Virus record (IMG/VR): IMGVR_UViG_3300023301_000031
Coordinates: 1-40,001 of that record
Length of the DNA stretch: 40,001 nt
Source: a virus
Reading direction: 5' to 3' (one strand)
Each line of letters opens with the position of its first letter. Position 1 is the stretch's first letter. The translations under genes were made by a program, and so were the position numbers. Of this stretch, positions 4,993 through 15,085 are shown in pieces. Under the pieces are notes generated by a model. It was not told the DNA's origin and did not search any database. It saw only the letters and a list, made by a program, of their open reading frames with translations.

Positions 4993-5336
4993 AATTATGT
5001 GGATTCTGTCATGGCAGTGGTTGGCAAAATGTTGGAGAAAGAATATCTTGTAAAAATTGTAGTACCGAGAGAGTAGACGAAATTAGGCAACTACATGATA
5101 CTAAAACCGATATGAATAAATACCGTAGATATGTGCGGCCTGATGTATTTATAGACGTTTATGATGTTCTTGACGTTTTTGAAGTTAGTAACCCCGCAGT
5201 TGCTCATGCAGTAAAGAAGTTATTAGCTCCAGGAAAGCGGGGTTTCAAATCTACAATAGACGATCTAAAAGAAGCTGTAGTTTCAATTAACCGTGGGATA
5301 GAGCTGGAGGAGCAGAATGTACGTAAAGTTGAGTAG
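4989..5336 (+). CDS. conserved phage protein with N-terminal zinc finger
   Basis: 115 aa. CGFCHGSGW at residues 4-12 with CKNC near 21-24 makes a DnaJ-like zinc finger. The C-terminal part (YRRYVRPDVFIDVYDVLDVF and NPAVAHAVKKLLAPGKRG) matches a phage hypothetical pattern known from many lytic phages. Function unknown; it overlaps thyX by 20 nt, so they are likely translated together. Confidence 0.65.
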   Translation: MKLCGFCHGSGWQNVGERISCKNCSTERVDEIRQLHDTKTDMNKYRRYVRPDVFIDVYDVLDVFEVSNPAVAHAVKKLLAPGKRGFKSTIDDLKEAVVSINRGIELEEQNVRKVE

Positions 5337-6978
5337 TTATAGTAGACCAACAAAAGCTTTAGAACACCTAGGAATCATTACTTTAGAAGATCAAATTGCT
5401 TATTTTGCTAAAGTATCTAATCCTAAAGGGCAGGAAGATATTAGTACCTCAGAAAAACTTATTAAGTACTTGATTAAACATAAACATTGGTCTCCTTTCG
5501 AGATGGTAAATATCGTCCTAGAAGTTAATACAACCAGAGACATAGCGCGTCAAGTGCTGAGGCACCGAAGCTTCACGTTTCAGGAATTTTGTATAGCGGA
5601 AGGTACTTATATAACTACTTTAACTAAGTCTGGGAATTCTAAGAAAGTTTTAGTAGAGGATTTATATAAAAGACAAAATTCTGTTCAATATTCTGATTTA
5701 TCTGATAATTTAGTTAGAGTATATGATGAAAAAACAAAACTTCTAGTCTCTGCAAAAATTAAAGAAGTATTTAAAACGGGAATAAAAGATTGTTTTAAAA
5801 TAACTACGGAGGCGGGGAAAACTATTATAACTACAAAAGAACATAAGTTTCTTACTACACAAGGCTTTAAAGCCTTGATGGATATAAATATAGGAGATTT
5901 TATAGCTACTAATGGAGTTAAGGTATACCAAGATTACGAATGGTTAAAACAAGTAAAAGAAGAATCTATAATAGACTGTACAGGGGTACAAGGTATTGCG
6001 GACAAAGCAAATTGTTCTTATCATACTATACGTAAATGGTTGCGTAAACATAGCCTACAATTTACAAAACAAGATGTATCAAGATATAGTACCCCCTGGA
6101 ACAAAGGTTTAGCTAAAGAGTTACAACCAATGTATGGAAAGAAGCACTCTATAGATACCTTAGAAAAAATGAAGGTGTCAGCTAGATCTGGAAAAGATTC
6201 TAATTTATACACAAATGGAATTAATGGTTGGAGAAAGCAAATAGCTTATGATTGTATAAAGAAAAAACCACAACTGTTACTAAAATTTTCTAATAAGTGT
6301 CCCTCTTGTGGTATAGCTATAAACAGGGGTACTTGTGATATAGACCACATTAAATCTGTAGGCTCTAAACCAGAGTTAGCTTATACTGATGATAATATTC
6401 AAATACTATGTAAACCCTGTCATAAGGAAAAGACTACACAAGAGACTTTAGACTCTAAGTATACTATAGGGTGGGATTTAGTGACTTCTATAGAATCAGT
6501 AGGTAGTTATGTAACTTATGATATAGAAGTGGATCATATATCCCATAATTATATAGCTAATAGCTTAGTGACTCATAACTCACAAAGGTACGCAGACCCT
6601 AGCGAGTCTTTAGGGTTTGTTCATAGTGAATGTCGTATGCAAGACCCAAAAAACCGACAAAGTAGTAGTTGGTGCTCTGAGCAAGAATTAATAGATTGGT
6701 GGAATACTGTGCAGGAGTCTGTAGCAGAAGAAAGTATGGATTTTTACACTCAAGCTGTTAAAAGGGGTATAGCAAAAGAGGTAGCTAGGAAACTTCTACC
6801 AGAAGGTCTCACAGGTTCCAGGTTATATATGAACGGTACATTACGTTCCTGGATTCACTACTGTGCCCTACGCTCAGGAGAAGAAACCCAATCAGAACAT
6901 CAAATTTTAGCTAGGGAATCTATTAAATGTATATCTAGTATATTCCCCCCAATGGAGGTAGTTTGTAATGGTATGTAA
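5317..6978 (+). CDS. thyX: flavin-dependent thymidylate synthase ThyX, intein-containing precursor
   Basis: The 553-aa precursor is two ThyX pieces around a 330-aa intein. ThyX methylates dUMP to dTMP using methylene-tetrahydrofolate, NADPH and FAD as a homotetramer. The N-extein (residues 1-91) ends in RHRSFTFQEF and the C-extein starts SQRYA, so splicing rebuilds the signature RHRX7S. The spliced enzyme would be about 223 aa, normal for the family. ATG at 5317 lies in an overlap with the upstream gene after GGAGGAG. It supplies dTMP for phage DNA synthesis. Confidence is high for both enzyme and intein. Confidence 0.93.
   Translation: MYVKLSSYSRPTKALEHLGIITLEDQIAYFAKVSNPKGQEDISTSEKLIKYLIKHKHWSPFEMVNIVLEVNTTRDIARQVLRHRSFTFQEFCIAEGTYITTLTKSGNSKKVLVEDLYKRQNSVQYSDLSDNLVRVYDEKTKLLVSAKIKEVFKTGIKDCFKITTEAGKTIITTKEHKFLTTQGFKALMDINIGDFIATNGVKVYQDYEWLKQVKEESIIDCTGVQGIADKANCSYHTIRKWLRKHSLQFTKQDVSRYSTPWNKGLAKELQPMYGKKHSIDTLEKMKVSARSGKDSNLYTNGINGWRKQIAYDCIKKKPQLLLKFSNKCPSCGIAINRGTCDIDHIKSVGSKPELAYTDDNIQILCKPCHKEKTTQETLDSKYTIGWDLVTSIESVGSYVTYDIEVDHISHNYIANSLVTHNSQRYADPSESLGFVHSECRMQDPKNRQSSSWCSEQELIDWWNTVQESVAEESMDFYTQAVKRGIAKEVARKLLPEGLTGSRLYMNGTLRSWIHYCALRSGEETQSEHQILARESIKCISSIFPPMEVVCNGM
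5590..6579 (+). mobile_element. HNH-containing intein inserted in ThyX
   Basis: Precursor residues 92-421. It starts with Cys (CIAEGTYI) and ends with a VTHN dipeptide-type end followed by extein Ser, the required residues for class 1 splicing. A conserved EHKF motif (block B-like, THH/TKEH region) lies near precursor residue 175. The centre carries an HNH endonuclease: CPSCG, DIDHI and CKPCHKEK. The endonuclease would cut intein-less thyX alleles and cause homing. All splice-site residues appear intact. Confidence 0.9.
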
Positions 6979-7500: not shown

Positions 7501-7835
7501 GGGGGTGCAATAGTTTCGACAGACGCTGTGGATAAAGATAACACAAGCCGTGGATGATTGTTGGCCACGTAAAATATCAATCACACTATAAACGCAGATT
7601 CTCAAGTAGAATACGCACTAGCAGCTTAGGCTGTGAGGTCGCCACCATACTCCGATAGGTGGATAGGCCCTTAATCGGAAACAGATGACAGTAGACCTGT
7701 CAAGATATTAGGAAAAGCTCGCCAACCTCTGGAGTCCTAGTAATCGAGATTTAGACCTAAAGTGGCAAACGCTTGTATAATGTTACTTTTGAAAAGGGTT
7801 TGGACGCGGGGGGCAGCACCCCGCCACCTCCACCA
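7501..7835 (+). ncRNA. ssrA: transfer-messenger RNA (tmRNA)
   Basis: A one-piece tmRNA of about 335 nt. The 5' end GGGGGTG pairs with CACCTCC before ACCA; a TTCGACAG motif follows the 5' acceptor strand, and TTTGGACGCGGG near the 3' end matches bacterial tmRNA. The tag ORF at 7594-7629 encodes ADSQVEYALAA then TAG, closely like the E. coli tag ending YALAA (ClpXP degron). ATAAAC before GCA resembles the ATAGTC that sets the resume codon in E. coli. tmRNA frees ribosomes stalled on broken mRNA. The T-loop is abnormal: GGCAGCA within a GC-rich stem instead of TTCRANT, so function should be tested. It lies between two tRNA-Leu genes. Confidence 0.92.
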
Positions 7836-7936: not shown

Positions 7937-8003
7937 GTTAGTATAGGATGCGATTGAGCAAGGCCTTTTAGACAAATAGTGGTTCGACTCCGCTTTTACT
8001 AAC
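7937..8003 (+). pseudogene. degenerate tRNA-like element
   Basis: A canonical T-loop (TTCGACT) in stem AGTGG/CCGCT and outer arms GTTAGTA/TACTAAC can be seen, but no anticodon stem forms in the middle and no CCA follows. It is either a decayed tRNA or a non-standard one. Confidence 0.45.
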
Positions 8004-8036
8004 TTTCTATTGTTAAAAATTTTTACTGTTAACTAT

Positions 8037-9822: not shown

Positions 9823-9896
9823 GTACCATTATTATTGGTAGTCACCTATTAAGTCCTACATGGCCTGGGTGGAGGGTTCGACTCCCTCAATGGTAC
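9823..9896 (+). pseudogene. tRNA-like element with odd centre
   Basis: An 8-bp acceptor-like stem (GTACCATT/AATGGTAC) and a canonical T-arm (GAGGG-TTCGACT-CCCTC) are intact. The centre does not give a normal D-arm or a 7-nt anticodon loop; a TCACC/GGTGG helix is possible. CCA is not encoded. Decayed or non-standard tRNA. Confidence 0.5.
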
Positions 9897-9904
9897 TTAG
9901 TTTC

Positions 9905-9975
9905 GGAAGTGTTCGAAGATCGGTACTAGGATTGCAACCCCTAGGATGAGAGTTTGAGTCTCTCCACTTCCTCCA
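9905..9975 (+). tRNA. tRNA-Cys (GCA)
   Basis: Acceptor GGAAGTG/CACTTCC, anticodon loop TTGCAAC, discriminator T as usual for tRNA-Cys, T-loop TTTGAGT, CCA encoded. One A-C mismatch at the top of the anticodon stem. Confidence 0.85.
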
Positions 9976-10007: not shown

Positions 10008-10060
10008 GCGGGTAGATAAGCTGTATGGTCGCGGCACTAGCCTTCCAAGCTATCACTATG
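10008..10060 (+). pseudogene. tRNA-Gly (UCC)-like 5' half
   Basis: GCGGGTA 5' acceptor strand and a Gly-type anticodon arm CTAGC-CTTCCAA-GCTAT (anticodon 10044-10046) are visible, but no matching 3' acceptor strand or normal T-loop follows. A hairpin CGTAT-CAATCCT-ATACG lies where a T-arm might be. A complete tRNA-Gly (UCC) is at 10872. Confidence 0.5.
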
Positions 10061-10100
10061 GCTACCGTAATGGCGTATCAATCCTATACGAGAAGACAGT

Positions 10101-11080: not shown

Positions 11081-11085
11081 TTTAT

Positions 11086-11186
11086 GGTCTATGTTGATGG
11101 AAGCAGCTTTATCTTAACCCCTGCAGGGGTCACTTATTCTAGATCTGTGTGATAAAGAAACCTAGGTTCGACCCCTAGATAGACCC
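11086..11186 (+). pseudogene. tRNA-like element with a 37-nt anticodon loop
   Basis: Acceptor GGTCTAT/ATAGACC, D-like arm GTTG/CAGC with a GG-containing loop, stem CTTTATC/GATAAAG (11107-11113, 11151-11157) in the anticodon position, and T-arm CTAGG-TTCGACC-CCTAG are present. The anticodon loop is about 37 nt instead of 7 and holds a perfect 14-nt palindrome ACCCCTGCAGGGGT. CCA is not encoded. It could be an intron-bearing tRNA or a pseudogene. Confidence 0.55.
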
Positions 11187-11191
11187 ACAAT

Positions 11192-11284: not shown

Positions 11285-11359
11285 GGAACTTTAGCTCAGT
11301 AGGTAGAGCGTCTGGTTGAAGCCCAGAAGGCATTGGTTCAATTCCAGTAAGTTCCACCA
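11285..11359 (+). tRNA. tRNA-Phe (GAA)
   Basis: Acceptor GGAACTT/AAGTTCC, anticodon arm TCTGG-TTGAAGC-CCAGA, T-loop TTCAATT, CCA encoded. Confidence 0.93.
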
Positions 11360-12652: not shown

Positions 12653-12729
12653 TGGTGTGTAGCGTACAGTGGTAACGCGCATGGCTGTTAACCATGTATA
12701 TGTCGGTTCGAACCCGACCTCACCAGCCA
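12653..12729 (+). tRNA. tRNA-Asn (GUU)
   Basis: Anticodon arm CATGG-CTGTTAA-CCATG, discriminator G, T-loop TTCGAAC, acceptor TGGTGTG/CTCACCA with one mismatch, CCA encoded. Confidence 0.9.
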
Positions 12730-12736
12730 AAATTGA

Positions 12737-12826
12737 ATAGTGGGAAACGCGGGTTCAATTCCCGTAAGGTCACTCTAGCGGCTACGCTAAGGAACTTTCG
12801 TCTAACTGGATAGGACACCTGCTAGT
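12737..12826 (+). other. circularly permuted tRNA-like element (3' half before 5' half)
   Basis: In order: TAGTGGG, AAAC, T-arm GCGGG-TTCAATT-CCCGT (12749-12765), AAGGTCA, CTC, hairpin TAGCG-GCTA-CGCTA, A, GGAACTT (12791-12797), TC, D-arm GTCT-AACTGGATA-GGAC, A, CCTGCTA. AAGGTCA and GGAACTT can pair 5 of 7, and CCTGCTA pairs with TAGTGGG with two wobbles, as anticodon-stem halves at the outer ends. Conserved U8, G10, A14, the D-loop GG and A26 are in place. No anticodon is evident. It may instead be two juxtaposed tRNA fragments. Confidence 0.5.
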
Positions 12827-12833
12827 AAAATAT

Positions 12834-12907
12834 ACTCCTATAGCTGAGTGGTTTAGCACAGTTCCGATAAAGCTGCGACGATGGTTCGATTCCATCTAGG
12901 AGTACCA
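12834..12907 (+). tRNA. tRNA-Ile (GAU)
   Basis: Acceptor ACTCCTA/TAGGAGT, anticodon arm CAGTT-CCGATAA-AGCTG, T-loop TTCGATT, CCA encoded. Confidence 0.9.
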
Positions 12908-12992: not shown

Positions 12993-13076
12993 AGGGTAGT
13001 AGGTTAAATGGTAACTGGTGTGCCAGCAAGCCTCCAAAACTTGTTCCAAGGGGTTCGATTCCTCGCTATCCTGCCA
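12993..13076 (+). tRNA. tRNA-Trp (CCA)
   Basis: Acceptor AGGGTAG/CTATCCT, A1 and discriminator G as in Trp, anticodon loop CTCCAAA, T-loop TTCGATT, CCA encoded. It is 84 nt, with an extra CTGG-TGTG-CCAG hairpin between the D region and the anticodon stem. Confidence 0.85.
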
Positions 13077-13689: not shown

Positions 13690-13764
13690 GCTCCATTAGA
13701 TTACTGGTTAGATCATCAGCTTTTCAAGCTGAGGGAAGGGGTTCGATTCCCCTATGGAGTACCA
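13690..13764 (+). tRNA. tRNA-Glu (UUC)
   Basis: Acceptor GCTCCAT/ATGGAGT, anticodon arm TCAGC-TTTTCAA-GCTGA, T-loop TTCGATT, CCA encoded. Its 3' half is included in the 301-bp tandem duplication. Confidence 0.92.
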
Positions 13765-13767
13765 AGT

Positions 13768-13879
13768 TTGAGTAAAGTAGTAGAAAAGTTAATGAGCAGA
13801 GGTTCAGACTACTCGGTGAATAGCCAAAGCATTGCTAAGCTTGTAAAAATATAGCACTACAATACTTTCTGATACTCAA
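13768..13879 (+). ncRNA. structured spacer RNA (copy 1)
   Basis: Nested pairs TTGAGTA/TACTCAA, AAGTA/TACTT and GTAGT/ACTAC bring the ends together over 112 nt. An identical copy is at 14069-14180. Confidence 0.4.
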
Positions 13880-13887
13880 TTAATCAC

Positions 13888-13961
13888 GGGGCTTTAGTAT
13901 AAAGGGATTATTTCTGGTTTGCAACCAGACGATCAGGGTTCGATTCCCTGAAGCTCCACCA
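13888..13961 (+). tRNA. tRNA-Ala (UGC), copy 1
   Basis: Acceptor GGGGCTT/AAGCTCC contains the G3-U70 pair that defines tRNA-Ala; anticodon arm TCTGG-TTTGCAA-CCAGA; T-loop TTCGATT; CCA encoded. Confidence 0.93.
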
Positions 13962-14026
13962 AAACCAGATAGTAGCGGTAGCAGTCCGCTATAAATACTC
14001 CTTAGGTAATACTCAGGCCGAAATCG

Positions 14027-14065
14027 AAGCTGAGGAAAGGGGTTCGATTCCCTTATGGAATACCA
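14027..14065 (+). pseudogene. tRNA-Glu 3'-half remnant
   Basis: A product of the tandem duplication: the 3' half of tRNA-Glu without the 5' half. It carries three substitutions relative to the intact gene, two of them in the acceptor/T-stem region, so it cannot be a tRNA. Confidence 0.85.
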
Positions 14066-14068
14066 AGT

Positions 14069-14180
14069 TTGAGTAAAGTAGTAGAAAAGTTAATGAGCAG
14101 AGGTTCAGACTACTCGGTGAATAGCCAAAGCATTGCTAAGCTTGTAAAAATATAGCACTACAATACTTTCTGATACTCAA
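14069..14180 (+). ncRNA. structured spacer RNA (copy 2)
   Basis: Identical by eye to the element at 13768-13879. Confidence 0.4.
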
Positions 14181-14188
14181 TTAATCAC

Positions 14189-14262
14189 GGGGCTTTAGTA
14201 TAAAGGGATTATTTCTGGTTTGCAACCAGACGATCAGGGTTCGATTCCCTGAAGCTCCACCA
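14189..14262 (+). tRNA. tRNA-Ala (UGC), copy 2
   Basis: Identical copy of the tRNA at 13888, including G3-U70 and CCA, produced by the 301-bp duplication. Confidence 0.93.
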
Positions 14263-14266
14263 AAAC

Positions 14267-14344
14267 CAGATAGTAGCGGTAGCAGTCCGCTATAAATACT
14301 CCTTAGGTAATACTCAGGCCGAAATATTGACGCTATGCTATCTG
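14267..14344 (+). ncRNA. structured spacer RNA
   Basis: CAGATAG pairs with CTATCTG and an inner TAGCGG-TAGCAGT-CCGCTA hairpin is perfect. The upstream duplicate (from 13966) lacks the right-hand strand, so only this copy can close. Confidence 0.4.
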
Positions 14345-14345
14345 C

Positions 14346-14506
14346 GGCACTATAGGCCGAAATCGGACATGCCAGTGCCGATTTAGTTGAAATGAGATAG
14401 TCCTTTACTCCCTGGCAGGAGTATAAATAAGACACCGCCTTGAAAGCGGAAATACGGGAGAGGGATGCCCGTCACAAAGAAGTCGTCTAATACTCTCTAT
14501 AGTGCC
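14346..14506 (+). ncRNA. multibranched structured spacer RNA, 10-bp closing stem
   Basis: GGCACTATAG pairs perfectly with CTATAGTGCC. Inside are four hairpins: AAATCGG/CCGATTT, TACTCC/GGAGTA, CCGC-CTTGAAA-GCGG (looks like a Ser UGA anticodon arm) and ACGGG/CCCGT. At 161 nt it is the largest and best-folded of the spacers, with no ORF. It may be a stable RNA like T4 RNA C/D, or a tRNA-Ser derivative. Confidence 0.5.
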
Positions 14507-15010: not shown

Positions 15011-15085
15011 GTGTCTGAAGGCAAAAGGCTCGCCGACTGATTGTGGCTCAGTTGTTAGTCAGTTCGATTCTGACCAGACACCCCA
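15011..15085 (+). tRNA. tRNA-His (GUG)
   Basis: Acceptor GTGTCTG/CAGACAC, anticodon arm ACTGA-TTGTGGC-TCAGT, discriminator C as required for His, T-loop TTCGATT, CCA encoded. The base at -1 is T, not the usual G. Confidence 0.9.

Follow-up and report, generated by a model that had tools for sequence, protein, structure and literature searches.

A 40,001-nucleotide stretch of viral DNA, hereafter the window, carries within its tRNA array an element at 12738-12824 that we tentatively read as a capped, circularly permuted tRNA-like RNA of the same type as the tRNA-mimic module of YrlA Y RNAs. Judged by its genes, the window is a fragment of a T5-like phage genome. The DNA polymerase shares 45% identity at 97% coverage with those of T5-like phages (e.g. 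Gostya9), and a T5-type NAD ligase subunit is also encoded. The tRNA array extends from 7370 to ~15085 and includes 19 ARAGORN-called tRNAs (all of which encode CCA) and a one-piece tmRNA, with further tRNAs appearing at lower thresholds (e.g. His at 15011, Cys at 9905, and a Trp-like one at 12999). The element is contained in the 104 nt that separate the mature ends of tRNA-Asn and tRNA-Ile, a site at which neither ARAGORN nor Rfam calls a tRNA. All of the parts named in a preliminary description are present in the swapped order that it gave, with a 3' half (T-arm, acceptor strand) followed by a hairpin and then a 5' half (acceptor strand, U8, D-arm, A26). The element and its neighbours comprise:

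12653-12729, plus strand: tRNA-Asn(GTT), the upstream neighbour, CCA encoded
12738-12744, plus strand: closing stem 5' strand TAGTGGG, made up of TA and the anticodon-stem 3' strand GTGGG; pairs 7/7 with 12818-12824 in the MFE fold
12749-12765, plus strand: T-arm GCGGG-TTCAATT-CCCGT (GCGGGTTCAATTCCCGT), part of no intact tRNA
12766-12772, plus strand: acceptor 3' strand AAGGTCA; the next bases are CTC, not CCA
12776-12789, plus strand: cap hairpin TAGCG-GCTA-CGCTA, linking the acceptor strands (from the sequence and the MFE fold)
12791-12797, plus strand: acceptor 5' strand GGAACTT, the same as in the tRNA-Phe at 11285; 5/7 pairs with 12766-12772
After the acceptor 5' strand and before the D-arm, plus strand: T8 and C9 (from the sequence)
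12800-12816, plus strand: D-arm GTCT-AACTGGATA-GGAC (GTCTAACTGGATAGGAC), part of no intact tRNA
12817, plus strand: A26 (from the sequence)
12818-12824, plus strand: closing stem 3' strand CCTGCTA, paired in the MFE fold
12834-12907, plus strand: tRNA-Ile(GAT), the downstream neighbour, CCA encoded

The pairing proposed in the preliminary description is borne out, as the acceptor strands pair 5/7 beneath the hairpin, with two mismatches, and the outer strands do so at 7/7. T-A follows the 5' half, placing an A where U33 would be, and the resulting TA/TA pairs extend the helix into the loop; the 7-bp closing helix consumes positions 32-33 and 37-38. RNAfold of 12737-12825 returns the proposed four-way junction as the MFE structure (-27.8 kcal/mol), with a z-score of -2.26 and 3 of 200 shuffles as good. 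When the 104-nt native context is folded, the flanks favour a different structure (-29.7 kcal/mol, better by 1.9 kcal/mol) and the probability of the closing stem is 0.17-0.19. With a closing stem at ~18% and an alternative native fold, thermodynamics alone is thus not decisive.

We compared the element's pairing with that of unrelated tRNA halves, using 472 tRNAs from phage arrays and 222,312 combinations of halves from different tRNAs. An acceptor of at least 5/7 is found in 18% of combinations, and the element's acceptor match alone is unremarkable. A 5/5 closing stem is found in 2.1%, both features together in 0.47% (0.5-1.1% in smaller sets), and both together with two additional pairs in 0.14%. 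When flanks are shuffled, about 0.8% of orphan T-arms pass the same cut-offs, which for the eight orphan T-arms in the window gives a chance expectation of about 7%. These low rates and the modest window expectation thus indicate that the two halves probably belong together, through descent from one tRNA or through selection. A covariance model of permuted tRNAs (R1), derived from 22 real tRNAs that were cut in silico and had their halves exchanged, was set aside as evidence. It scores the element at 22.1 bits and ordinary head-to-tail neighbour tRNAs at up to 52.6 bits, meaning that any two tandem tRNAs look permuted to it. Among the R1 matches that were checked, the element is the only site at which both halves are orphan.

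The same layout is found in other phages. We scanned 48 loci (676 kb), picked for carrying tRNA arrays or as homologs of a first match, for an orphan T-arm, a capped acceptor, an orphan D-arm, and a closing stem. Matches occur in exactly three unrelated groups: the window; the Straboviridae Citrobacter phage Ci1 and Cronobacter phages S13 and LPCS28; and the Aeromonas Shenzhenvirus phages TS3, Akh-2, AhP_Mru1, and AhSzw-1 (our loci L270, L275, L273, and L274), where the element (15998-16088 in L270) is unannotated. Homologs exist for both of the other groups. Two-sided changes between Ci1 and S13/LPCS28 (three sequences) affect four acceptor, two closing-stem, and one T-stem pairs, while those among the Shenzhenvirus phages (four sequences) affect five acceptor, two T-stem, and one closing pair. 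One Shenzhenvirus phage has a wholly different acceptor sequence that, aligned by hand, is still 6/7 paired. Capped permuted tRNA-like RNAs appear, from these comparisons, to be real and maintained in phages.

The covariation that the preliminary description had looked to related phages for is found for the layout in two other groups, but not for the window copy itself. Neither half nor the junction, used as exact patterns against IMG/VR and GTDB genomes, recovered a homolog of that copy. A blastn search of GenBank phages with the halves recovered generic tRNA matches only, apart from a 28-nt match between the 5' half and a tRNA of Ci1, which prompted the Ci1 comparison. Searches for relatives with ThyX and the DNA polymerase recovered many contigs, few of which have tRNA arrays.

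The capped permuted layout of the phage groups is that of the tRNA-mimic module in YrlA (RF02553), a kind of Y RNA with a domain resembling tRNA (PMC7790460). By circular permutation, a bacterial Y RNA can be superposed on tRNA (PMC11472068). Carriage of YrlA by phages has been reported (PMC7765460); the earlier statement that permuted tRNAs are not established in phages overlooks YrlA RNAs, and the two conserved phage groups described above also have this layout. The S13 module is matched across its cap in Klebsiella phage KP13-16 and in Rhizobium phage RHph_Y65, and within 600 bases of that match each has a match to the YrlA model itself (39.7 and 37.3 bits, respectively, against a cut-off of 69). 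The RHph_Y65 copy is directly upstream of a TROVE-domain gene. A DUF2828 protein, which we infer to be Ro-like, is encoded by five phages with an S13-type module or insert-bearing tRNAs (Ci1, S13, KP13-16, phiN3, and KVP40), and the other 27 records searched yielded one sub-threshold trace. RF02553 falls at the right place on the Shenzhenvirus elements, below its cut-off (22.5-25.2 bits), and no TROVE or DUF2828 gene was found in those genomes.

The window element resembles YrlA (RF02553; structure 6CU1) in having a T-arm, a capped acceptor, and a D-arm in that order and in having its outer ends paired at the place of the tRNA anticodon stem, but differs in its 5/7 acceptor and in its cap, a 5-bp hairpin within an 18-nt linker. 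The RF02553 covariance model does not match it at E<=10. A long Ro-binding stem is absent, with only short A/T-rich sequence between the 7-bp closing helix and the tRNA on either side, and no TROVE or DUF2828 gene (PF05731, PF11443) is present in the 40-kb record, which is itself a fragment. With the Shenzhenvirus elements it shares a T5-like phage host, a position inside a tRNA array, a 4-nt variable region, a 7-bp closing stem, the lack of a conserved CCA, and the lack of a detected Ro-like gene. The Shenzhenvirus elements differ in being conserved by covariation, in sequence, and in an acceptor that mostly pairs 6/7.

We consider a capped permuted RNA of the YrlA mimic-module type to have somewhat less than an even chance of being the correct reading of the window element. 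This reading is favoured by the layout, by the MFE structure of the element folded alone, by halves that match each other beyond chance, and by the covariation of the layout in two other groups. It is also favoured by the two orphan halves, a combination that the element alone shows among the checked R1 matches and that only three groups show in the 48-locus scan, and by the sub-threshold RF02553 matches at the Shenzhenvirus, KP13-16, and RHph_Y65 loci. Moreover, a closing helix that continues past the anticodon stem and a missing CCA, both as in Shenzhenvirus, fit a mimic rather than a decoding tRNA. Counted against it are the lack of a homolog, of an RF02553 match, and of a Ro stem or gene, together with the 5/7 acceptor and the ~18% closing stem. 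Such an RNA could arise if the whole array were transcribed as one RNA, from which maturation of the tRNA-Asn 3' end and the tRNA-Ile 5' end would free a ~104-nt piece. The piece would fold with its own ends paired at the anticodon-stem place and its acceptor stem closed by the hairpin, presenting to enzymes that bind or cleave tRNAs what would resemble a tRNA elbow (T-arm and D-arm), while being unable to be aminoacylated or to decode. The layout may thereby confer a function as a decoy or a processing signal; cellular YrlA has been suggested, not shown, to be a competitive inhibitor of a tRNA-cleaving nuclease (PMC7790460).

A broader and more doubtful proposal is that T5-like phages, including Shenzhenvirus and the window phage, carry in their tRNA arrays a class of free-standing capped permuted mimics, without a Ro stem or protein, that either serve as decoys for host nucleases attacking tRNAs or regulate how tRNAs are processed. 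Expression of the element would mean that a phage with many tRNAs also carries a non-decoding tRNA look-alike, which would be a natural candidate against host anticodon nucleases, and the tRNA-mimic module of Y RNAs would extend to phages that seemingly lack Ro-like proteins.

The strongest alternative, and only a little less probable, is that the element is debris of the array. Tandem duplication and deletion would have placed the 3' half of one tRNA gene beside the 5' half of another copy, perhaps Phe-like, leaving a functionless sequence whose pairing is inherited from the ancestral gene. The array is visibly rearranging: a 301-bp tandem duplication (13726-14325, 99% identical) doubles a tRNA-Ala and left the 3' half of a tRNA-Glu orphaned (~14024-14066). 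The eight orphan T-arms and other degenerate tRNA-like pieces without CCA (T-arms at 7978, 9872, and 11162) agree with this account, and decay would yield the 5/7 acceptor and the loss of CCA. Both halves have tRNA-Phe-like traits (the acceptor GGAACTT, the T-loop TTCAATT, and a GAA in register upstream), and their best matches among intact tRNAs are diffuse (Arg, Glu, and Val for the 5' half; Glu, Phe, and His for the 3' half). On the other hand, debris requires the two kept halves to share one break point in the anticodon loop, and it gives no particular reason to expect the additional 32-38 and 33-37 pairs, which are pairable in 109 of the 472 intact tRNAs. The combination of two orphan halves is also rare elsewhere and conserved where found. 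If debris is correct, the element shows how swapped tRNA halves originate in phage arrays and that layout alone must not be named a permuted tRNA.

It is very improbable that the halves are two unrelated remnants with coincidental pairing. The finding was selected from the whole window, for which the ~7% expectation leaves some room for coincidence, but unrelated halves reach such pairing at rates of only 0.14-0.47%.

A working permuted tRNA-Phe(GAA) gene, from which the cap hairpin would be removed and the ends ligated as in red algae and Thermofilum, is very improbable, and the preliminary description's analogy to the permuted tRNAs of algae and archaea does not hold up. As in the permuted tRNA genes of Cyanidioschyzon and Thermofilum, the 3' half precedes the 5' half and the split falls in the anticodon loop. 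Joining positions 1-31 (12791-12822) to 32-73 (12733-12773) moreover gives a tRNA-Phe with U33 and anticodon GAA that ARAGORN accepts at its 97% setting. The joined halves nonetheless fail at the default setting, and we discounted the de-permuted score as evidence, as random chimeras also pass (10% at default, 18% at the 95% setting). A join at 31/32 places U at the purine position 37, and otherwise A33 follows the 5' half. In contrast to the algal and archaeal genes, the element has no decoding-competent loop or splicing motif that we could see, and no splicing endonuclease or RNA ligase was found among the screened window ORFs (a subset of all ORFs). An intact tRNA-Phe is, in addition, already present at 11285. 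Since the element has no CCA, no U33, and two acceptor mismatches, in addition to its 7-bp closing helix, a decoding permuted tRNA is unlikely.

Two further candidates were rejected. Like a two-piece tmRNA (RF04321; found in relatives L084, L085, and L195), the element has a capped acceptor and a T-arm preceding the 5' end, but it does not match RF04321 and contains a true tRNA D-arm; its sole Rfam tmRNA resemblance is in the T-arm (7.2 bits). A match to the AdoCbl-II riboswitch, at 18.9 bits where the cut-off is 36.5, was taken as chance. Permuted tmRNAs are known in marine phages (PMC9004378), and the window tmRNA (7501-7835) is one-piece, whereas those of T5-like relatives are permuted and two-piece (L084 5615-6007; L085 760-1165; L195 2813-3218).

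Several other features of the window came to our attention. Degenerate or odd tRNA-like stretches, mostly without CCA, are located at 7938-8010, 9823-9896, 10010-10075, and 14330-14495. The tRNA-like element at 11085-11190 has a ~37-nt anticodon loop with CCCCTGCAGGGG and no encoded CCA, and its cloverleaf is not supported by the MFE structure. Outside the array, the thymidylate synthase ORF (5317-6978) is split by an HNH-containing insert, probably an intein.

Unusual tRNAs were also observed in the other phages. A ~45-50-nt insert in the anticodon arm, with the core ACGCAAACTGAYAAGTTTGTATTCAGCA, is present in tRNAs of S13 and Ci1 (L276 1249-1491 and L167 480-725), and tRNAs of KVP40 (L304 1382-1628) have an anticodon-arm insert in the same length range. 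These insert-bearing tRNAs are annotated as Ser, pseudo, or 'OTHER', and all three phages encode a DUF2828 protein. The inserts could be introns or, alternatively, Y-RNA-like arms that tRNAs have acquired. For S13 and Ci1, we dropped the intron reading in favour of a Y-RNA-like arm, a preference that falls short of proof, because similar ACGCA and CAGCA motifs lie on either side of the permuted element and there is a gene for a DUF2828 protein nearby. Aeromonas phage 65.2 has a 118-nt tRNA-OTHER with a ~45-nt anticodon-arm insert (L266 13320-13437). Finally, a region of L084 (101-238, also part of L252) encodes two tandem D-arm/T-arm bodies that lack anticodon arms, are joined by a hairpin, and are enclosed by a single acceptor stem (GGTGAGTT/AACTTACC), an arrangement with which the MFE structure agrees.
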